Source: an uncultured Clostridia bacterium (lineage in GTDB: Bacteria > Bacillota > Clostridia > Oscillospirales > Acutalibacteraceae). Taken from it: DNA of 64,000 bases. Below are positions 27,737-37,278 of this stretch, one piece after another. The DNA lies in the NCBI GenBank assembly GCA_947166625.1, contig CAMVEX010000010.1:1-64000 (forward strand), given 5' to 3'. The notes beneath the pieces were generated by a model that was given only the letters and a program-made list of their open reading frames with translations, made no database searches and was not told the origin of the DNA. Numbering within the stretch: position 1 is the first letter of the stretch; each line of letters begins with the position of its first letter. The translations under genes were made by a program, and so were the position numbers.

Positions 27737-29230
27737 ATGTCTAAAAGAGAAAAATACGAAGATATATCCAGCAGCAGTAAACCGGGCAGTTTCAAAGAGA
27801 AACTCGGCTACTCCTGCGAAAAAATCAAAATATTTTTTATGAGAAATCACAAGAGAAACCTCAAGGCGGTTTTGAGCGTGGTCATCTGTCTTGTTCTCAT
27901 CGTTGCCGCGATGGGCGGCGCTTATATACGCAAGCTGCTCGGTCTGATCAAATTCGATCCCGGCAATTTCGGCAATCCGGACGCCACGTTCGAGAGCGTT
28001 GAGCCCGATGAAAATCTCTCATTTGCCACCATTTCCGACGTCGGCGCTTCTTCCATAAAGGAATACGCCAAAAACTGGGCTCTGAACGGCGGCGACAAGC
28101 TCTACAGCAAATATGTATTCAATGTGCTTCTCATCGGCGAGGACGGGACGGATGAAGATTCTTTCCTGCGCTCCGACACGATGATAATAGCCTCGGTCAA
28201 CACCAAGACCAAAAAGATAACCCTCAGCTCCGTTATGCGCGACTGCTACACCTATATGAATATAGACGGCGAAGACAGATACGATAAAATCAACGCCGCA
28301 TACGCATGGGGCGGAGCCTCAAAGCTGATGCAGGTTTTATCCGATAACCTCAAAATCAAGCTTGACCACTATGTTTCGATAAATTTCAATTCATTCGCAA
28401 AGGCTATAAATAAGCTCGGCGGCATAGATGTTCCCATAACGGAAAAAGAAGCCGAATTTATGAACCGCACCACTCACCTCAACGATTTCACCGCGGGCGA
28501 GAGCGTTCACCTCAACGGCGAAAGAGCCCTCATATACGCGAGGATAAGAAAGCTTGACAGCGATATCGAGCGCACCCGCAGGCAGAGAAATGTGATCTCG
28601 GCGGCGATAAAGAAGGTCAAGGCTTCGTCGGTCAGCGATATCAACGGCCTTATCGAGGATTTCCTCCCCTATGTGACCACAAACTACAAGACCGGTGAGA
28701 TCCTCTCTCTCGGCACTCAGGCGCTCAGCGGCGGCTGGCAGAATTATGAGATAACCGGCGATGTGCTTCCGAATGAGGACGCCCGCCTGGCGGTCAACAG
28801 CTTCCAGGCTTACAGCGGAAAGGTGTTTGTATGGATAGTTGACTACACCCTCGCGGCGCGCGAAATTCAGCTCGCTCTCTACGGCAACACAAATATAGAG
28901 ATCGGCACCAACCACATCTCTCCCGTAGATATGGCAGACGGCGACAGCGGAACGACCTCTTATTACTCCAGCTCCCGAAACTACTATTATTCCTATCAGC
29001 AGAGCCAGCAGACGCAGACAACGCGCAGCAGATGGTATCAATGGACCAAGGCTCCGGAGAGCACGGATTATTACAACTCCACCTCAAGCCTGCGCGACAG
29101 ACTGTCCTCGGCTTTTTCAAGAGACAATACCGAAAACACACAGGCGCCCGTATATACAGACCCCGTTACTCAGTACACAGAGCCCTCTGCCCAGCCCTAT
29201 GTTGAGCCGTCGTCGGTATTTGAGGAATAA
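27737..29230 (+). CDS. LytR-CpsA-Psr (LCP) family wall-polymer ligase
   Basis: A 497-residue cell-envelope enzyme that transfers lipid-linked glycopolymers to peptidoglycan. Short cytoplasmic tail, one membrane helix (about 45-65, VLSVVICLVLIVAAMG), then the LCP domain: LLIGEDG, RSDTMIIASVNTKTKKI, SSVMRDCYTYM (the conserved arginine-containing strand), KINAAYAWGG and ARIRKLDSDIERTRRQR, the polyprenyl-phosphate-binding arginines. The last 120 residues are Ser/Thr/Tyr/Gln-rich and probably span the wall. Start ATG 27737 has GGCGGAG upstream. Confidence 0.93.
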   Translation: MSKREKYEDISSSSKPGSFKEKLGYSCEKIKIFFMRNHKRNLKAVLSVVICLVLIVAAMGGAYIRKLLGLIKFDPGNFGNPDATFESVEPDENLSFATISDVGASSIKEYAKNWALNGGDKLYSKYVFNVLLIGEDGTDEDSFLRSDTMIIASVNTKTKKITLSSVMRDCYTYMNIDGEDRYDKINAAYAWGGASKLMQVLSDNLKIKLDHYVSINFNSFAKAINKLGGIDVPITEKEAEFMNRTTHLNDFTAGESVHLNGERALIYARIRKLDSDIERTRRQRNVISAAIKKVKASSVSDINGLIEDFLPYVTTNYKTGEILSLGTQALSGGWQNYEITGDVLPNEDARLAVNSFQAYSGKVFVWIVDYTLAAREIQLALYGNTNIEIGTNHISPVDMADGDSGTTSYYSSSRNYYYSYQQSQQTQTTRSRWYQWTKAPESTDYYNSTSSLRDRLSSAFSRDNTENTQAPVYTDPVTQYTEPSAQPYVEPSSVFEE

Positions 29231-29250: not shown

Positions 29251-29285
29251 ACCCGCAAGGACCGAGTGCCTTGCGGGTGATTTTT
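29251..29285. terminator. Bidirectional terminator
   Basis: ACCCGCAAGG and CCTTGCGGGT (29251-29260 with 29269-29278) with T-runs on both sides (GATTTTTATT on plus; TTTTCG on minus), serving the LCP gene and the convergent sulfoquinovose operon. Confidence 0.85.
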
Positions 29286-29306: not shown

Positions 29307-30752
29307 TTATTCCGCCGCCGATTCGTCTGCCGCTCTCTGAGCCGCAAGCTCTTCGTGGACCGTAACGAGCTTCTTCTTTGAAAGATCGTATCCGACAAAA
29401 AGGATGACCGCCATAAGCGCGAGCATGATCGCGGGAACGAGCGTGGATATATCATAGAGCTTTGAGAGCACTTCATCGGGCAGAGGGATGCCCTTCTTTG
29501 AAAGCTCGCCGTCATATTTGATATAGGCGAGCAGGGCGTTGAGACCTACGCCGGCAAGAGTCTGTCCGAGCTTGCGGGTGAATGAGAATACGGCGTAAGC
29601 CATTCCCTCTTCCCTTTTGCCCGTCTTGACCTCGTGATAATCTATGGTATCCATAACAAGCGCCCAGACTTCAAGCACAAGGAAGGTCTGACCGAGACCC
29701 GAGAAGAAAGTGAAAGCAAGGAAAACGGTCGGATACGAAGCGAGAGCGGTGCCTCTGACGGCAAAGAGCGCGATATTCACGACCGCCGCGAAAGCCATAC
29801 CTGCGGCGCAGAGCTCTTTCTTGCCGAATTTCCTTATAAGTTTATTCATTATCGGGATGAATATCGCCATCGGGCCGTAGGTGCAGATCGTTACAAATGC
29901 GTAAAGACCCGGTTTCCGGTAATAATCGGTAAAGAGGTATGTATAGGTTGACTGATAATAGAACTGGAATGCGATAAGAAGCATCGAGGCAAGCGAGAGG
30001 GTGACGAACGCCCTGTTGCCGAAGAGCTCTTTGACCGTAGCCACCGCGCTGTAATTCTTATCCTTCTTATGCTTCTGCGGAGCGATCCTCTCTTTTGTAA
30101 GCTTGTAATGGATAAAATAGACAGCCACGGAGAGGACCGAAAGGATCAGCACACACCAGAAAAGTTTCTTTTCATCAAGCGCTTTGATATCGGTGCCGTT
30201 TTTGTATTTGCCGGTAACGGTATAAACTATCATCGGGAGAATTATCGTGCCGGGCAGACCGCCGACGCCCGCGCCGATCGAGCGCCACATCGAGAGCGAC
30301 GAGCGCTCAAGCTCATCATCGGTAACGACCGAGGCAAGTGAGCCGTAAGGGATATTTACCGCCGTGTACATCATACCGTACATAATATAGGTGATATAGG
30401 CGTAAATAAGATACTGTATTTCGCTCAGGCCGGGAATTTTAAGGAACATAAGCGCCGCAGAGATCGCGAGAGGGATCGAAAAACCGATGATCCACGGTCT
30501 GAACTGACCCTTCGGATTCGGCTTTCTCGACTGGATAAACGCGCCCCAGAGCGGATCGTTGATCGCATCCCAGATCCTCGCCACGAGAATCAGCACGACG
30601 ATATAGCCGGGTCTTATCCCGAGCGAATCGGTATAGAATTTATTTTGGAAAGCGCCGATGAGCGAAAATGTGAGCAGACCCGCGGTGTCGCCGAGAGCAT
30701 AACCCACCTTATCTTTGAATTTTATGCCGTGAGTTGCTGTTGTTTCTGCCAA
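29307..30752 (-). CDS. GPH-family sugar symporter, probable sulfoquinovose importer
   Basis: A 481-residue twelve-helix MelB-type symporter. The conserved acidic pair is in ARIWDAINDPLWGAF, and the loop GQFRPWIIG follows. It is the last gene of the sulfoquinovose operon, 16 nt behind the TauE-like exporter. Because the sulfoquinovosidase has no signal peptide, this carrier is the best candidate for import of sulfoquinovose or its glycosides such as sulfoquinovosylglycerol. That substrate is inferred from context, not from sequence. Confidence 0.85.
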   Translation of the reverse strand: MAETTATHGIKFKDKVGYALGDTAGLLTFSLIGAFQNKFYTDSLGIRPGYIVVLILVARIWDAINDPLWGAFIQSRKPNPKGQFRPWIIGFSIPLAISAALMFLKIPGLSEIQYLIYAYITYIMYGMMYTAVNIPYGSLASVVTDDELERSSLSMWRSIGAGVGGLPGTIILPMIVYTVTGKYKNGTDIKALDEKKLFWCVLILSVLSVAVYFIHYKLTKERIAPQKHKKDKNYSAVATVKELFGNRAFVTLSLASMLLIAFQFYYQSTYTYLFTDYYRKPGLYAFVTICTYGPMAIFIPIMNKLIRKFGKKELCAAGMAFAAVVNIALFAVRGTALASYPTVFLAFTFFSGLGQTFLVLEVWALVMDTIDYHEVKTGKREEGMAYAVFSFTRKLGQTLAGVGLNALLAYIKYDGELSKKGIPLPDEVLSKLYDISTLVPAIMLALMAVILFVGYDLSKKKLVTVHEELAAQRAADESAAE

Positions 30753-30768
30753 ACCAATCTCTCCTTTA

Positions 30769-31500
30769 TCATTTTATCAAGAGGGACGCGCCGCTTATCA
30801 GCATCAGAATATAAGTGAGAATGAGAAAGACCTTCCTGCTCATTTTTTTGCTTATGAAACTGCCGATCACAAGGGCGCCTGCAAGTATCACGACAGATAT
30901 TGCCGTGAGCCTGACCGTTGAGGGGATAAAATACCCCTCATAAATATCCGCCGCGAAAAGGATGCCGTTGAGAAGTATCCACACCGCGCTGAGAGTGCCT
31001 CTGAATTCGTCTTTATCGCGCATTTTGCCGCTCGCGTAAGTGACCAGAAGCGGACCTCCGCAGACAAACATCCCGTGGACGACTCCCGAGAGGATGAGTA
31101 GGATCACCGAAACGGGCTCCGGGAGCTCTTTATCATCCTTATTCCTGAAAAATTTGACGGCATTCATCAGAGCAAAAGCTATCACGATGATGCCGAGCGT
31201 CTTGTAGAGAAGCGAGGGATTTCCGGTAAAAAACCTTTTGAGCCAGATCCCCGCCGCCATTCCTACAAGCATTATGCCCGTCATCTTGCCGAGCTCTTTT
31301 TTATTTATGTGTCTGAAACAGGTCGCGACCACATATACCGAGGCGGCGAGCCCGAGCAGATTGAGCACCGGCTTCGCCACATCATATCCCACAAGCATCA
31401 CCGAAAACGGCATGGCGAGCACCGTGCCCGCGAATCCCGTAATGCACTGGATTATGTTTGTGAGAAATACGACCAAAAGAAAAAGTATATTTTTAACCAT
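30769..31500 (-). CDS. TauE/SafE-family exporter, probable sulfonate efflux
   Basis: A 243-residue, about eight-helix permease of the TSUP (TauE/SafE) family, with the family pattern GFAGTVLAMPF in the first helix pair and GVVHGMFVCGGPLL in the second repeat. Family members export sulfite, sulfoacetate and other sulfonates. Inside a sulfoquinovose operon it most likely exports the three-carbon end product 2,3-dihydroxypropanesulfonate. ATG overlaps the isomerase stop by one base (TGATG). Confidence 0.88.
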   Translation of the reverse strand: MVKNILFLLVVFLTNIIQCITGFAGTVLAMPFSVMLVGYDVAKPVLNLLGLAASVYVVATCFRHINKKELGKMTGIMLVGMAAGIWLKRFFTGNPSLLYKTLGIIVIAFALMNAVKFFRNKDDKELPEPVSVILLILSGVVHGMFVCGGPLLVTYASGKMRDKDEFRGTLSAVWILLNGILFAADIYEGYFIPSTVRLTAISVVILAGALVIGSFISKKMSRKVFLILTYILMLISGASLLIK

Positions 31501-32834
31501 CAGAATTCACATACGGGTATGCCGAGCATATTGCCGAGAGCCTTCACCGTATCGTAAATATCGCCCTGCGCCACTGCAAAATGAGGTTCCCAGCCCCCTT
31601 TGACCGCGGTTTCTACCAAATTGCGCGCGTCGCTTTCCGTCTGAATGACGGTCGAGGTGCCGTAAAACTGCTGAGGCTTGTCGAGGGCTTTGCCCTTCGC
31701 GATAAAGAATCTGAAGCTGCCGTCCGCCTCTCTGCCGATCCTGAAAATCGTGACCTTTTCCTCGGGTCTGCATCCGAATTCGAGAGTGGGGCCGATTTTG
31801 CGGTTGCAGTGAAGCCCCGCGCAGGCTCCGGTATCCTCTCTTGCGAGCGAGCAGGGAGCCATACCGCAATGCCAGAAGGTGACGGTATTCTCTTTTTCGT
31901 CAAGAGAAACGGGGTCGCCGAAAAAGGCGCTCTTTCCCGTAAGGAAAGATGAGATATACATGGTCAGCGCTCCGTATGAATCCGCCTCGCAGGCGCAGGA
32001 TACGCCGAGATCATTCAGAATACCGAGCACGGAGCACACCGGGGTGCCGAAAGCCGTAAAGAAATCCGGCCAGCAGCGGCTCGCGAGAGCGCCGATATTA
32101 TTTGCCTTCACATAATCGGAATATGATTTATAAAGCCTTGCGAAATCCTCAACATTTTTGCTCTCTATATCATCGAGCCTGTTGATCCTCTTTGCCGCAT
32201 CCTCAAGATAAGGCTCTATCTCTTCGCGGGTGTAGGATTTCGCGCGGTCGATAAGCTCTCTCGCCTCGATGCTCTCAAGCGTTACTCCGAAAACTCTGAG
32301 CATATCGGAATCAAGCGCTCTGCCGAAGCCGAAGCCCTGCGGAGTATGCCCTACCTGGAGCAGATGAAGCGAATTCATGGCTTTTTTGACCTTTGCCGCG
32401 GCTACCGCGCACGCCACCGCATTTTTTACGCTCTCTTCATCGGGTGAGCCGAACACATATTCAAAGCTTCTGCTGAAGGCTCTGAGCGTATTTGCCGCCG
32501 AAAAGGCTCCGGTGAGGGAGTTGAGGCGCAGACGGGTGCCGTCGATCACGGGCTCGCGCAGAGTCCAGAGCAAGACGGGGCAGTCGAATTTATGAAGGAT
32601 CTCGCTCATATAAGCCGCGTTTGCGAAGGTGAGATTCTGAACTATCACGAGATCCGCGTGCGCGTCGCCTATATAATCTTTGAGTTTGTCTATGCTCAGC
32701 AGCATTTCACCGGGAACGCGGATATTTTCATCAATGCTTTTGAGCAGGGCGGCGCTTTTATCAAACTCCGCCCGGGCGCTCTCAAGATGGAATGTGCCTA
32801 CGCCTATGGGGATATATACGGGTAAGAAACTCAT
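31500..32834 (-). CDS. sftI: FucI/AraA-fold isomerase, probable sulfoquinovose isomerase
   Basis: A 444-residue ketol-isomerase of the L-fucose/L-arabinose isomerase superfamily. The metal-site blocks are visible: CACEADSYGALTMY with the ligand Glu, AFFGDPVSLDE with the ligand Asp, and FWHCGMAP with the ligand His. In the sulfo-SFT pathway such an enzyme converts sulfoquinovose to 6-deoxy-6-sulfofructose. The assignment rests on the fold plus the neighbours (sulfoquinovosidase, transaldolase, sulfolactaldehyde reductase, TauE). I chose ATG 32834 with GAGG upstream; a TTG at 32843 overlaps the preceding gene. Confidence 0.82.
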   Translation of the reverse strand: MSFLPVYIPIGVGTFHLESARAEFDKSAALLKSIDENIRVPGEMLLSIDKLKDYIGDAHADLVIVQNLTFANAAYMSEILHKFDCPVLLWTLREPVIDGTRLRLNSLTGAFSAANTLRAFSRSFEYVFGSPDEESVKNAVACAVAAAKVKKAMNSLHLLQVGHTPQGFGFGRALDSDMLRVFGVTLESIEARELIDRAKSYTREEIEPYLEDAAKRINRLDDIESKNVEDFARLYKSYSDYVKANNIGALASRCWPDFFTAFGTPVCSVLGILNDLGVSCACEADSYGALTMYISSFLTGKSAFFGDPVSLDEKENTVTFWHCGMAPCSLAREDTGACAGLHCNRKIGPTLEFGCRPEEKVTIFRIGREADGSFRFFIAKGKALDKPQQFYGTSTVIQTESDARNLVETAVKGGWEPHFAVAQGDIYDTVKALGNMLGIPVCEF

Positions 32835-32839
32835 TGAAA

Positions 32840-33703
32840 TCAATCCTCGATTCCGTTAACTATTTTATAGGTGGCGCGGAAATCTCCCTTGCCCATACCC
32901 ATTTCCATGCCTTTGTCAAACACCGCTTTGCAGTTTTGAAGCCCGGGCATCGCAAGGCCCTCCTGCGCGGCAAGGCGCTGGGCAATGCCTAAATCCTTAT
33001 GCTCGTTTTCGAGAGAAAAGGCGGTAGTCCAGTTATTATTCTTAAGATTTTCTTTTTGTGATTCAAGATAGAAGTTGCCCGCTCCGCCGTATGAGACGGC
33101 GGTGGCGAAATCATCAACGGAAATGCCGAGCTTGCGGGCAAGGCCGAGAGTTTCATTCACGCCGTTCTGGATTTCGGCAACAAGGGTGTTGTGGCAGATT
33201 TTCATGGTGATGCCCATTCCGTTTTCGCCCATACGGATAACGTTGCAGCCCATATATTTGAGAATTGGCTCGATAACGGGATAAAGCTCCTCATCGCAGC
33301 CTACAAGCACTCCGAGGGTGCCGTCGATGGCGGCGGGCTTTGATTTGACAACGGGAGCATCCGCCCACTGAGCGCCCTTCGCCTTTATCATGGCGGCGCA
33401 TTCAAGCGAAACGGAGGGGTCGATGGTGCTCATATCTATACAGATCTTTGTTTCGTCGATATAGGGGAGAAGCTCTGTGTAAACTCCCTTTACGTGCTCC
33501 GATTTGGGGACCATCGTAATGATGACATCGGCGTTTTTTGCCACCTCGATATTGTTTTCGCAGGGAACTGCGCCCTGAGAGGCGAGCTTCTCTACCTGCG
33601 CTTTGTTGAGGTCGGAAACGAACACTTTATCATTATGCTTTTTAACTATGTTGGCGCTCATGGATTCGCCCATGATGCCAAGACCTATAAATCCTATTTT
33701 CAT
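32840..33703 (-). CDS. 3-hydroxyisobutyrate dehydrogenase-family 3-sulfolactaldehyde reductase
   Basis: A 287-residue beta-hydroxyacid dehydrogenase most like E. coli YihU. Rossmann motif GFIGLGIMGESMS at 4-16, catalytic Lys 168 in MKICHNTL. At 116-123 the usual family substrate loop PVSGG is replaced by PVVKSKPA, with two lysines, recalling PVGRTSAN of YihU, where basic residues hold the sulfonate. The predicted reaction is NADH-dependent reduction of 3-sulfolactaldehyde to 2,3-dihydroxypropanesulfonate, which regenerates NAD in a fermenter. It follows the transaldolase gene after 6 nt. Confidence 0.85.
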   Translation of the reverse strand: MKIGFIGLGIMGESMSANIVKKHNDKVFVSDLNKAQVEKLASQGAVPCENNIEVAKNADVIITMVPKSEHVKGVYTELLPYIDETKICIDMSTIDPSVSLECAAMIKAKGAQWADAPVVKSKPAAIDGTLGVLVGCDEELYPVIEPILKYMGCNVIRMGENGMGITMKICHNTLVAEIQNGVNETLGLARKLGISVDDFATAVSYGGAGNFYLESQKENLKNNNWTTAFSLENEHKDLGIAQRLAAQEGLAMPGLQNCKAVFDKGMEMGMGKGDFRATYKIVNGIED

Positions 33704-33709
33704 ATCAAA

Positions 33710-34396
33710 TCACTCCGTAATCGTGTTATCCCATGCCGTCTGGAATTTTGCAAGGCCGTAATCCGTAAACGGATGATAGAAGCTGTCTTTGAATACCTGA
33801 AGGCCGGCGGTGACTATATCGGCACCCGCTACGGCGCAGTCAACTATCTGTTTGCCGTTTCTCACGGCGGCGCAGATTATCTGAGTCTCGCCCAGGAAGC
33901 CGTAATTCGCATACATTTCAACTATATCGTTGATATAGCCCACGCAATCCTCTCCGCTGTTTTCCTTCCAGCCGATAAACGGCGAAACGAAGAGCGAGCC
34001 GTTCTTCGCGGCGATAAGCGCCTGAGACGCGGAAAATACGAGGGTGAGATTGGTGCGGATGCCTTCCTTCTCAAGGCGGCGTGCGGCGGCTATGCCGGCG
34101 TGTGTGCAGGGGATCTTGATGACGAAATTCTTGCACATCGCAGAGATCTTTCTCGCCATTTCAACCATTTCATCGGCATTGTCGAGATGAGGATTTATCT
34201 CGACCGAAATCGGGAAAACATCCCAGCCCTCTATGCCCTTCTCTTTAACGAAATCCGCAAGCTCCGCAATTACGGTGTAAAACGGCTTTCCGCTGTTCAT
34301 AATATGATTGGGATTTGTTGTGATCCCGTCGATTCCGAAGGTGTCATACGCCTCTCTGATTTCATCAATTTTTGCAGAATCGAGAAAATACTTCAT
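33710..34396 (-). CDS. sftT: Transaldolase, probable 6-deoxy-6-sulfofructose transaldolase
   Basis: A 228-residue short transaldolase of the FSA/TalC type: start MKYFLDSAKIDEI, then GITTNPNHI, the Schiff-base Lys 94 in FVIKIPCT, and ADIVTAGLQVF near the C-terminus. In the sulfo-SFT pathway it cleaves 6-deoxy-6-sulfofructose, passing the dihydroxyacetone unit to glyceraldehyde-3-phosphate to give fructose-6-phosphate and free 3-sulfolactaldehyde. Function is assigned from family plus operon. GGAGG lies 9 nt upstream of the ATG, 1 nt after the sulfoquinovosidase stop. Confidence 0.87.
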   Translation of the reverse strand: MKYFLDSAKIDEIREAYDTFGIDGITTNPNHIMNSGKPFYTVIAELADFVKEKGIEGWDVFPISVEINPHLDNADEMVEMARKISAMCKNFVIKIPCTHAGIAAARRLEKEGIRTNLTLVFSASQALIAAKNGSLFVSPFIGWKENSGEDCVGYINDIVEMYANYGFLGETQIICAAVRNGKQIVDCAVAGADIVTAGLQVFKDSFYHPFTDYGLAKFQTAWDNTITE

Positions 34397-34397
34397 T

Positions 34398-36401
34398 TTA
34401 ATAAACCTCCCTGATTTTATTCATTATTGAATGCAGGCTTTCGTCTGCGTTTTTCCTGTAATATACCGGTATCTTGCCCACGGGCGCCTCGACCGCATAG
34501 AGGCCTCCCTTTAATTCTCTGCCCGTTGAGAGTTCTATCCATTCATCCCCGGGCAGATAGACCTGCCTGAGAGAAGCGCCTTTTTTTATCACCGGCGCCA
34601 CAAGGATGTCTCTGCCGAGCAAATATTCATAGCTTTCTTCATAGGCTTTCTCTTCATCATAATAGAAGAAAAGCGGTCTGACGACGCCGACGCCCTTTTC
34701 GGCATTATACCTGACGGCATCTTTGATATAGGGCTTGAGAAGGGTGTGTATCTGCGCCATCTTTGTCTGATGAGAGAGCACCTCATCGCTCGCGTCAAAC
34801 TGCGCGTTGAGATCGGGATTGTTGCCCTCGTGGCTTCTCATAAGGGGCGAAAAGGCGTTCATTTCGCACCAGCGCATATAAAGCTCCTCGCTCCTGCGCA
34901 TTTTGCCGAAGGTGGTATATCCGCCGATATCCGAATGGCTCAAGCCGTAGCCGCTGCAGGTGAGCGAAAGCATCGCGGGGATCACCGAGGGCAGGCCGTT
35001 ATCGAGCGAAAAATCAACGTGATTGTCGCCGTTCCACATCATTGTGGAATATCTCGGGGTGGCGGAATGACCCGCTCTCGTAAAGAACATTATATCTCCG
35101 AGCCTGCCGGATTCCTCGATCGCCTCTCTGTTGAGCTGAGCCCATCTCGCGGGCCAGGTGTTATGGACGAGCTCGGGATCCTCGCCGCTGTAAAGCACGC
35201 AATCCGTCGGCAGATATTCGCCGAAATCCGCCATCCAGCCCGAAAGCCCGAAATCTATCATATTCTTTTTGATAACGTTTTTGAGCCACTCCCACGCGTC
35301 GGGATTTGTAAAATCCACCATGGCGGCGGGGAAGGTCGTTATCGTGACATAATAATCCTTGCCCTCTTTATCCTTTACGCAGTAGCCCTTTTCGCTCGCC
35401 TCTTTATAAAGCGGCTTCTCTATGGCGAGGAAGGGGTTGCAGTAGCCCATCACGCGGATATTTTTTTCTTTTAATTCCTCTATCGCTTTGTCGAGCCCGG
35501 GGTAAAGCTCTCTGTCCCACTCCCAGTTCCACATAAGCTGTTTGCCGAAGGCGGTGATCCTCCTGCCTTCCCAATCCTGGATCCATACGCCGGCGACCTT
35601 CATGCCGCGGTCAAGGCAGGTCCTGACTTTATTCATCATTATTTCGGTGCCGCCCTGGATGCCGAGGATGGCGCCGTCATAAACCCAGTCCGGAAGCTCC
35701 GGCTGCCTGCCGAGGATCTCGGACAGATCGCTCACGGTATCCTCAAAGGTATCTCCGAAGCCGATGCAGAAATTGTCGATACTGTCTATCTTCAATGTAT
35801 GGAAATCGGGGTTGCGGAAATCGAATTCGCATCTCGCCGAGGTCTGCGAATGGAAATAATATTTTTTGCTTGAGAGAAAAGTGGGCTGGGCATAATATGT
35901 TTCATAATCCGAAAACTTATGCTTTTTATCCGAAATATCAATGCCGAATTTTATCTTGAGATATTTTTTGGAAATCATTTTGGCATTCTGATGCTCGGCC
36001 ACCCATACATTCACCTTCTGACCGCGCAGGTCAAATTCTGAAAAGGTCTCGCCGGTGCCGTAGATATGCTCATCGGCTGTCGCGGGGATGCTGAATATCA
36101 TCCGGTTATATGCGCCGAGCCCCTGAAACTCGGCGTAGATCCTGTTGCCCGAAGCGGTGAGGATCGCCTTGCCCTCGGTCATCGTCAGCTCGGCTACGCT
36201 CCCGTTGACGACGATTTTTTTAACGCTCAGAGGCTTATCCACAAAGGTTTTTTCTTTGATGGTAAAGCTGCCCCTTGTCATCGAATAGCTGTTTTTGCCG
36301 TAGCCCACGCGAAAGAGCTCTGCGCCGGTATAAATCTTATAAACACAGCGCCCGCCCCGCATCACGCTGAGGTCTTTATTCTGAAGTGAAAACTCGATCA
36401 T
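34398..36401 (-). CDS. sftG: GH31 sulfoquinovosidase
   Basis: A 667-residue GH31 enzyme, very similar along its length to E. coli YihQ, which releases sulfoquinovose from its glycosides. Nucleophile Asp 392 in WMADFGEYLPTD, acid/base Asp 459 in MWNGDNHVDF. Of the five residues that define the sulfoquinovose pocket in YihQ (Gln262, Gln288, Arg301, Trp304, Tyr508, recalled numbering), four are conserved (QGGTE, IQDW, MWNW, IGGYTT), but Arg301 is Gln 288 here (FGKQLMW) and a new Arg appears nearby in EGRRIT. No signal peptide, so cytoplasmic. ATG 36401 has GAGGTAG upstream. First gene of the operon. Confidence 0.92.
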   Translation of the reverse strand: MIEFSLQNKDLSVMRGGRCVYKIYTGAELFRVGYGKNSYSMTRGSFTIKEKTFVDKPLSVKKIVVNGSVAELTMTEGKAILTASGNRIYAEFQGLGAYNRMIFSIPATADEHIYGTGETFSEFDLRGQKVNVWVAEHQNAKMISKKYLKIKFGIDISDKKHKFSDYETYYAQPTFLSSKKYYFHSQTSARCEFDFRNPDFHTLKIDSIDNFCIGFGDTFEDTVSDLSEILGRQPELPDWVYDGAILGIQGGTEIMMNKVRTCLDRGMKVAGVWIQDWEGRRITAFGKQLMWNWEWDRELYPGLDKAIEELKEKNIRVMGYCNPFLAIEKPLYKEASEKGYCVKDKEGKDYYVTITTFPAAMVDFTNPDAWEWLKNVIKKNMIDFGLSGWMADFGEYLPTDCVLYSGEDPELVHNTWPARWAQLNREAIEESGRLGDIMFFTRAGHSATPRYSTMMWNGDNHVDFSLDNGLPSVIPAMLSLTCSGYGLSHSDIGGYTTFGKMRRSEELYMRWCEMNAFSPLMRSHEGNNPDLNAQFDASDEVLSHQTKMAQIHTLLKPYIKDAVRYNAEKGVGVVRPLFFYYDEEKAYEESYEYLLGRDILVAPVIKKGASLRQVYLPGDEWIELSTGRELKGGLYAVEAPVGKIPVYYRKNADESLHSIMNKIREVY

Positions 36402-36433
36402 ACGCACACTACCTCATTTTAATTATCCTTATT

Positions 36434-36462
36434 ATTCTACACCGATTATGCAAAAATTGCAA
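36434..36462 (-). promoter_or_regulatory. Promoter of the sulfoquinovose operon
   Basis: Minus strand TTGCAA (36457-36462), 17 bp, TAGAAT (36434-36439), about 35 nt before the sulfoquinovosidase start. No regulator gene lies in or next to the operon. Confidence 0.7.
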
Positions 36463-36587
36463 TATAAAAATCGTGAGGATCGGCTTATGGCGAATATAAA
36501 ATGACCGCCCGGATCGACGCATTTTGCCTGAAAAGCTTTCATTTTTGAAAATTATTCGAGTTTCGGTACCAACACTCCGAAAATTTT

Positions 36588-36627
36588 GTTCGATACTGTT
36601 GACAATTTCGTTCGATTTATATATAAT
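36588..36627 (+). promoter_or_regulatory. Consensus promoter of phd-vapC with GTTCGAT repeats
   Basis: Perfect TTGACA (36599-36604), 17 bp, perfect TATAAT (36622-36627). GTTCGAT occurs at 36588-36594 and again at 36610-36616 inside the spacer, 22 bp apart, about two helical turns. Such repeats over the promoter fit autorepression by the antitoxin or the toxin-antitoxin complex (inference). Confidence 0.8.
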
Positions 36628-36649
36628 AATCGTGAAAGGAGATGATATT

Positions 36650-36865
36650 ATGTCAATTACCGCAACAGAGCTTAAAATGAATCTTGCAAAGTATCTGCTT
36701 ATGGCATCCACTCAGGATATTTATGTGACCAAAAATGGAAAAGTTATCGCCAAGCTCACAAGCCCCTATCAGGATAAAGTGGGGATTGCCGAATCGCTGA
36801 TAGGCATAATACCGGGCGATGTCTCCCTCAATGAAGTCAAAGAAGAGAGGCTTTCCGAAATATGA
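36650..36865 (+). CDS. Phd/YefM-family antitoxin
   Basis: A 71-residue antitoxin: MSITATELKMNLAKYLLMA is the DNA-binding Phd domain (ATELKMNL in the usual TEAK/ELR position) and IYVTKNGKVIAKLTSP the second conserved strand pair. The acidic C-terminus would wrap the toxin. ATG 36650 has AAAGGAG at 8 nt. Its stop overlaps the toxin start by 4 bases (ATGA), the usual coupling in these modules. Confidence 0.9.
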   Translation: MSITATELKMNLAKYLLMASTQDIYVTKNGKVIAKLTSPYQDKVGIAESLIGIIPGDVSLNEVKEERLSEI

Positions 36866-37278
36866 CGGTTTTGTTTGACACCTGTGTTCTGATAGATTCT
36901 CTTCAAGACCGAAAACCGTTTTCGGAGGATTCCAACAGATTGCTGCTAGCGGTCGCGAGGGAAGAGATCAAAGGATATATCAGCGCCAAATCAGTCGCGG
37001 ATATATATTATCTCATGCACAAAACAACTCACAGCGACGAAAAGACAAGAGATATTCTCTCTAAAATATTTTCTCTGTTTCATATCTCGGATGTTACCGC
37101 ATCCGACTGTCTCGGCGCATTGACTTCGGAAATTTCCGATTATGAAGACGCGATTCTCGCGGAATCGGCGGCGCGCGCCAAATTTGACTGTATCGTTACG
37201 AGAAACGCACCCGATTTCAAAAAATCATCCGTCAAAACCGTTTCGCCCGCTGAACTGGTCGGAATAATAACCGCCTGA
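36862..37278 (+). CDS. PIN-domain toxin, VapC-like
   Basis: A 138-residue PIN-domain ribonuclease, toxin of the pair. Acidic active-site positions are in LFDTCVLIDS (Asp 6), SVADIYYLM, SDYEDAILAE and FDCIVTRNAPDF. VapC toxins cut tRNA or rRNA. The toxin appears intact. The module lies between the sulfoquinovose operon and the radical-SAM genes, and the next start codon follows 23 nt later. Confidence 0.9.
   Translation: MTVLFDTCVLIDSLQDRKPFSEDSNRLLLAVAREEIKGYISAKSVADIYYLMHKTTHSDEKTRDILSKIFSLFHISDVTASDCLGALTSEISDYEDAILAESAARAKFDCIVTRNAPDFKKSSVKTVSPAELVGIITA

Follow-up and report, generated by a model that had tools for sequence, protein, structure and literature searches.

A compact operon of six genes in the DNA of an uncultured clostridium of the Acutalibacteraceae (GenBank assembly GCA_947166625.1, contig CAMVEX010000010.1, positions 1 to 64,000; this 64,000-nucleotide stretch is referred to here as the window) very probably encodes a sulfoglycolytic pathway of the sulfofructose transaldolase type (sulfo-SFT, also called sulfo-TAL). 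This reading is based on gene content, gene order, homology and co-occurrence, from which we infer the reactions, the directions of transport and the natural substrate. The operon occupies positions 29307-36401 on the minus strand (Table 1). The pathway itself is known, having been reported in 2020 according to passages of PMC9594981 and PMC12890257; the new part is the variant, in which the GH31 glycosidase carries the substitutions R301Q and E369T (YihQ numbering), the protein SftX is missing, and no ROK-family regulator gene is linked to the operon, although many relatives have one. Overall, the operon is most likely of the sulfo-SFT type, in a compact form whose glycosidase is altered, and the uncultured clostridium that carries it has many relatives in herbivore guts. 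What exactly the GH31 enzyme acts on is less certain than the pathway.

In the scheme that we propose, the GPH-family symporter would import sulfoquinovose (SQ) or sulfoquinovosyl glycerol, and the GH31 enzyme would free SQ in the cytoplasm. The isomerase SftI would convert SQ to 6-deoxy-6-sulfofructose, from which the transaldolase SftT would transfer the dihydroxyacetone unit of three carbons to glyceraldehyde 3-phosphate, yielding fructose 6-phosphate and 3-sulfolactaldehyde. The reductase would turn 3-sulfolactaldehyde into 2,3-dihydroxypropanesulfonate (DHPS) with regeneration of NAD+, and the TauE/SafE protein would export the DHPS.

The pathway type, which an earlier note on this DNA had put forward, is supported by the scores of the transaldolase and the isomerase. 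SftT aligns end to end with the solved sulfofructose transaldolase BmSF-TAL (8bc3) at 306.6 bits, against 157.8 bits for the best ordinary transaldolase (1vpx) and about 87 bits for the fructose-6-phosphate aldolase (FSA) of E. coli; on TIGR00875, the FSA/TalC model, it reaches 194.4 bits and stays under the cut-off of 246. Its scores place it with BmSF-TAL rather than among ordinary FSA/TalC enzymes, and no second TAL_FSA match turned up in the window's genome, which is 97.5% complete. For SftI, the sulfoquinovose isomerase model NF048012 is the only NCBIfam match, scoring 400.7 bits across almost the full length; the FucI and AraA models of NCBIfam gave no match at an E-value of 0.001. By score, the two enzymes thus do not show the grouping with ordinary fucose isomerase and FSA enzymes that, according to the earlier note, would have spoken against its reading. 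No solved chain matching SftI by sequence was found; its predicted structure (predicted local distance difference test, pLDDT, 87.4) resembles those of arabinose and fucose isomerases, with which it shares 12-15% identity. Glu286, Asp310 and His421, which we take by analogy with FucI to be the metal site, are kept in all 68 rows compared, but because more distant isomerases keep them too, they are no argument for SQ as the substrate. The score of SftI below its model's cut-off and its AraA- and FucI-like fold could be read as signs of an ordinary fucose or arabinose isomerase, standing with an FSA transaldolase in an operon for a neutral pentose or hexose and with coincidental neighbours. Given the lack of any FucI/AraA match, the far closer relation of SftT to BmSF-TAL and the recurrence of the gene set described below, we regard this as extremely improbable, and on the strength of the two enzymes' family scores we discarded ordinary fucose or arabinose metabolism.

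A scan for SftT relatives returned 131 stretches encoding one, of which 80 were kept as named loci, some of them on short contigs unable to show a whole operon. All six genes are present in 50 of the 80, on one strand in each of these 50 and in the window's gene order in 47, and because of this recurrence the set is not attributable to chance. Relatives of the exporter and of the symporter (290.9 bits on TIGR00792, over the cut-off of 231) occur in 61 and 59 of the 80 loci, respectively, and the motif SPF-x-G-WKE is kept in all 80 transaldolases. In the window, the six open reading frames, with matches to the Pfam families GH31, TAL_FSA, NAD_binding_2/11, Fucose_iso_C, TauE and MFS_2, are intact and tightly packed, which bears out the operon as first described. 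Its junctions in transcription order are a gap of 1 nt, a gap of 6 nt, overlaps of 4 and 1 nt, and a gap of 16 nt; the "gaps of 16 nt or overlaps" of the earlier note are thus right for the maximum, not for a uniform spacing. None of the six genes encodes a regulator.

Several observations weigh against the proposed pathway. The score of SftI lies below the NF048012 cut-off of 700; since the SftI of L144, a canonical cluster in the same taxonomic order with SftX and an Arg301 glycosidase, likewise falls under it with 413.6 bits, the value appears normal for a broad group and SftI is no outlier. Position 30 of SftT is Asn in the window and in 77 of the 80 loci (Lys in 3/80; rows of at least 215 aa), whereas it is Arg in BmSF-TAL and in loci L142 and L144. 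The glycosidase has Gln at the position of YihQ Arg301, where all four aligned solved sulfoquinovosidases have Arg. The reductase scores 181.7 bits on tartronate-semialdehyde reductase models against 155.1 on the sulfolactaldehyde reductase model, none of them over its cut-off, and YihU (6sm7) is only its fifth-best PDB match at 118 bits. The operon has no gene for SftX (DUF4867), and a search of the window's genome gave none either; the same search was positive in genomes G001, G005, G015 and G029. Lastly, rumen microcosms fed with SQ formed isethionate, and DHPS was not detected in them, according to passages of PMC13219744, although these microcosms need not involve the window's genus. The replacement of an Arg in two enzymes (GH31 and SftT) and the preference of the reductase for tartronate-semialdehyde reductase models would suit an operon that serves as a whole for a non-sulfonated sugar, a neutral 6-deoxy or other hexose, by means of an isomerase, a fructose-6-phosphate-aldolase-like enzyme and a tartronate-semialdehyde-like reductase. 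This is improbable in view of the similarity to the canonical cluster L144 (identities of 61% for the isomerase, 69% for the transaldolase, 62% for the reductase and 45% for the exporter), and of the Lys120 that the reductase has at the YihU Arg site, the presence of a TauE/SafE exporter, the absence of FucI/AraA model matches and the fact that FSA is not preferred for SftT.

The reductase is a member of the 3-hydroxyisobutyrate dehydrogenase family, the wider family of YihU. Because no model of a specific activity passes its cut-off and YihU ranks fifth, its assignment to sulfolactaldehyde is drawn from operon context together with one conserved lysine: Lys120, at the YihU Arg position, is found along with Lys168 in all 74 rows of at least 260 aa (12 of 75 sequences had no pattern match and were settled by alignment), and L144 also has the basic residue. 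Given a reductase without a dehydrogenase in the operon, and no HpsG or HpfG by cut-off in the genome, DHPS as the exported end product is plausible from the gene complement. We also considered a second pathway end in the same cell, from DHPS to 3-hydroxypropanesulfonate or sulfite, and dropped it: of the two glycyl radical enzymes found in the genome, one passes the pyruvate formate-lyase cut-off (1119.6 bits) and the other reaches 166 bits on the HpsG and 131 on the HpfG model, where the cut-offs are 1000, so that neither is HpsG or HpfG by cut-off. The gene of this second enzyme (L174 1375-3696, on contig C41 of the same genome) lies beside what appear to be genes for its activase and a sugar kinase.

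A more complicated situation is evident for the glycosidase. It scores 783 bits on the YihQ model NF007746 (cut-off 553), and its best PDB matches are 8r56, YihQ 5aed, E. rectale SftG 6pnr and the A. tumefaciens enzymes 5ohy/5ohs, which lead by about 390 bits. It resembles the solved YihQ/SftG enzymes (5aed, 8r56, 6pnr, 5ohy) in family, length, the catalytic Asp pair and five of six compared pocket positions, and differs from them in R301Q, in E369T (Thr where all four have Glu369) and in a stretch around FPAA, where operon-type glycosidases have ITTFPAA and canonical enzymes FGEFYCG. In YihQ, Arg301 binds the sulfonate, and its replacement by Gln in the window's enzyme, also in comparison with Arg301 of the E. 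rectale SftG, means that the enzyme is not the plain SftG/YihQ sulfoquinovosidase of the earlier note. Among the clade rows of at least 600 aa, the positions D405 and D472 and the pocket residues Q262, Q288, W304, Y508 and H537 are each kept in 66 of 66; the two Asp are the catalytic nucleophile and acid/base, and the others line the pocket. No signal peptide is visible by eye.

The substitution is a property of the whole group. Gln301 is found in all 66 of these long clade rows, and Gln301 with Thr369 in 70 of 70 operon-type rows. In an 84-row alignment (rows of at least 350 aa and four PDB stretches), many rows of which are close relatives, Arg301 is paired with an acidic residue at 369 in 12 of 12 rows; of the 72 rows with Gln301, 71 have a non-acidic residue there, and L142, with Asp, is the lone exception. 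On a tree of 28 of the 73 glycosidase rows the Gln301 state needs two changes, and L124 has the joint change yet groups with Arg-bearing relatives; a motif pattern search gave no match in three of 73 rows (L015, L045, L065). Coupling of R301Q to the Arg30 change of SftT was considered and dropped, given that L142 pairs a Gln glycosidase with an Arg30 transaldolase. L142 itself, an 8.5-kb contig of genome G320, also carries a distant isomerase (27%) and neither a reductase nor SftX, and possibly represents another variant. The jointly changed pair in 70 of 70 operon-type rows, its origin on at least two occasions (L124), the near-strict pairing of the residues at 301 and 369 and the replacement of FGEFYCG by ITTFPAA could all indicate that a core sulfo-SFT pathway is fed by a GH31 enzyme with another substrate, either SQ with a different aglycone or a related C6-modified sugar, bound in a pocket independent of Arg. 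Although compatible with the core of the pathway, we consider this unlikely given that the catalytic Asp pair and the five remaining pocket positions are conserved, that the Arg301 form occurs with the same core genes in genomes of the same genus, and that the glycosidase gene lies directly upstream of sftT in 60 of the 71 loci holding both. Tentatively, we suggest that Clostridia of herbivore guts may possess a second class of GH31 glycosidase for sulfosugars, without the Arg301-Glu369 pair, inside an SftX-free sulfo-SFT operon; either the sulfonate would be recognized in a new way, or the substrate would be a sulfosugar glycoside of a new kind. A sulfoquinovosidase subgroup of an unrelated enzyme family, with gene clusters of its own, likewise has a changed position in the sulfonate site; there a Leu that makes a backbone contact is replaced by Tyr, whereas the window's enzyme loses a charged side chain.

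That the operon-type GH31 is the glycosidase of the pathway is indicated by co-occurrence: the transaldolase is present in 23 of 45 genomes of the genus, and a glycosidase in exactly the same 23. In 20 of them it is of the operon type, comprising the window's own and 19 others that are 65-84% identical over the part present (G003 in two pieces, G012 partial), and direct inspection of 13 of the 20 found Gln with Thr in all 13. The other three, G001, G005 and G015, hold an Arg301 glycosidase instead, on a contig other than that of the transaldolase, as well as an SftX-bearing cluster; no glycosidase was linked to these clusters in the loci taken around them. The two forms of the enzyme seem to stand in for each other in one job. 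The counts at genus level do not represent independent events, as the genomes are related. Arg and Gln glycosidases beside the same core genes in one genus provide a natural experiment on sulfonate recognition.

SftX, a cupin of unknown function, is described as conserved in the sulfo-SFT pathway in passages of PMC11968277, which also note sulfo-Embden-Meyerhof-Parnas (sulfo-EMP) and sulfo-transketolase (sulfo-TK) clusters without it. Among the first 25 genus genomes searched, 13 hold an SftI above 300 bits; SftX is present in three of these and was not found in ten, namely the window's genome and nine others, five of which are only 76-84% complete. At the level of loci, SftX is present in 50 of the 80 and missing from 30 (short contigs included). 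Its presence requires four changes on an SftI tree of 73 rows, two of them forced by well-supported branches, and a search for SftI residues changing with the loss of SftX gave one weak candidate column (243) and nothing convincing. SftX-plus and SftX-minus operons in one genus thus form a natural experiment on the role of this orphan cupin. A ROK-family regulator gene is located between the exporter and symporter genes in L028 (14627-15730), and in the same slot in many SftX-bearing loci. Of 74 loci, 41 have both SftX and the ROK gene, 23 have neither, 10 have SftX without ROK (some on short contigs) and none has ROK without SftX, which hints that the two belong together; with only two independent pairs (sign test, median p 0.5), the link is a lead only.

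By predicted functions, the cluster of Eubacterium rectale (Agathobacter rectalis) agrees with the window's operon in its SQ isomerase, sulfofructose transaldolase, NADH-dependent sulfolactaldehyde reductase, exporter SftE, GH31 enzyme SftG and DHPS ending; it also contains SftX and a glycerol kinase, according to passages of PMC11968277, and the window's operon has neither, so that the statement of the earlier note that the described pathway uses exactly this set does not hold. In the sulfo-TAL system of Bacillus (Priestia) megaterium/aryabhattai, which includes a FucI-family isomerase, SqvD, and the closest solved relative of the window's SftT, BmSF-TAL, sulfolactaldehyde is oxidized to sulfolactate, where the window has a reductase, and a DUF4867 protein, SqvB, is present that the window lacks (passages of PMC9594981, PMC12890257). 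The sulfo-transketolase systems of rumen Caproiciproducens and Ca. Limivicinus also belong to herbivore-gut Clostridia and share the SftI type, with YihQ in Limivicinus and SftT in Caproiciproducens; the latter is described as having SftT but no sulfolactaldehyde reductase, and hence an incomplete transaldolase branch. The window's operon has the reductase type that those Caproiciproducens genomes are without, and its predicted product is DHPS and not isethionate (passages of PMC13219744). Neither a transketolase (SqwGH) nor SqwI is encoded among the six operon genes, the part of the genome to which this comparison was confined. According to the same source, rumen genomes with YihQ are mostly Acutalibacteraceae, Oscillospiraceae and Lachnospiraceae, and the parts of its main text consulted make no mention of a full sulfo-SFT operon in Clostridia of the rumen. 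In the parts of the openly licensed literature consulted, we came across neither a sulfo-SFT operon without SftX nor a Gln301 group.

Outside the genus the SftT gene is rare: at an E-value of 1e-50 or better, even samples yielded it in 1 of 397 further phylum genomes and in 2 of 294 further genomes from the order. In a sample of 398 phylum genomes, the glycosidase has matches at 1e-90 or better in six, not counting the window's own. Five of the six (G124, G159, G286, G342, G424) also hold an SftI-like gene at 1e-60 or better, and in G320, the remaining one, there is an SftT with 59% identity. No fixed insertion site was found: of the loci taken from L015 on, L022 and L158 share the neighboring radical-SAM gene, and many loci reach only part of the flanks. 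Surroundings that differ between most relatives whose flanks are available, together with presence in about half of the genus, suggest gain and loss of the operon.

Hosts named in the record titles of relatives are goat, sheep, water buffalo, reindeer, red deer, roe deer and horse; the RUG and HAN series come from cattle, the Lapin series is from rabbit, and other titles name no host. In the guts of herbivores, plant sulfolipid serves as a source of sulfur, and which sulfite-respiring bacteria are fed depends on the sulfonate that fermenters excrete. Together with its relatives, the operon suggests a DHPS route in animals of the kind for which the isethionate route was reported. If the suggestion of a second GH31 class is true, sulfoglycolysis that forms DHPS would be common among ruminants and hindgut fermenters, in addition to the isethionate route reported for the cow rumen.

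Table 1. Genes of the operon and adjoining signals, in window coordinates.
Feature	Position	Strand	Remarks
GH31 glycosidase, SftG-like (YihQ group)	34398-36401	-	ATG start; alternative in-frame GTG at 36407 possible
SftT, sulfofructose transaldolase	33710-34396	-	closest to BmSF-TAL 8bc3
SftR-like NAD-dependent reductase, predicted for sulfolactaldehyde to DHPS	32840-33703	-	3-hydroxyisobutyrate dehydrogenase family
SftI, sulfoquinovose isomerase, FucI/AraA fold	31500-32843	-	TTG start; internal ATG at 32834 possible
TauE/SafE-family exporter, likely for DHPS	30769-31500	-	PF01925, 71.8 bits
GPH-family symporter, probably for uptake of sulfoquinovose or its glyceryl glycoside	29307-30752	-	TTG start; TIGR00792, PF13347
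Promoter-like site TTGCAA-17-TAGAAT	36434-36462	-	9/12 matches, consensus only; 32 nt ahead of first ATG
Terminator-like hairpin	29251-29278	-	downstream of last gene; consensus match only, scored on both strands

Some relatives show other arrangements. In L169, L170 and L171 (genomes G727, G714 and G013), an sftG-sftT pair has no other operon gene within the 19-20 kb taken, and in G013 the isomerase, exporter and symporter genes are on another contig, a few genes from an apparent infB. The canonical cluster of L144 (9593-19499) contains what appear by eye to be tripartite tricarboxylate-type transporter genes, with no GPH match. In the window, the terminator-like hairpin sits between the symporter gene and a convergent gene at 27737-29230. 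At the other end, divergent from the operon, a Phd/YefM-like antitoxin gene (a weak match) and, overlapping its end by 4 nt, a PIN-domain (PIN_3) gene occupy 36524-37278 on the plus strand and are likely a toxin-antitoxin pair.

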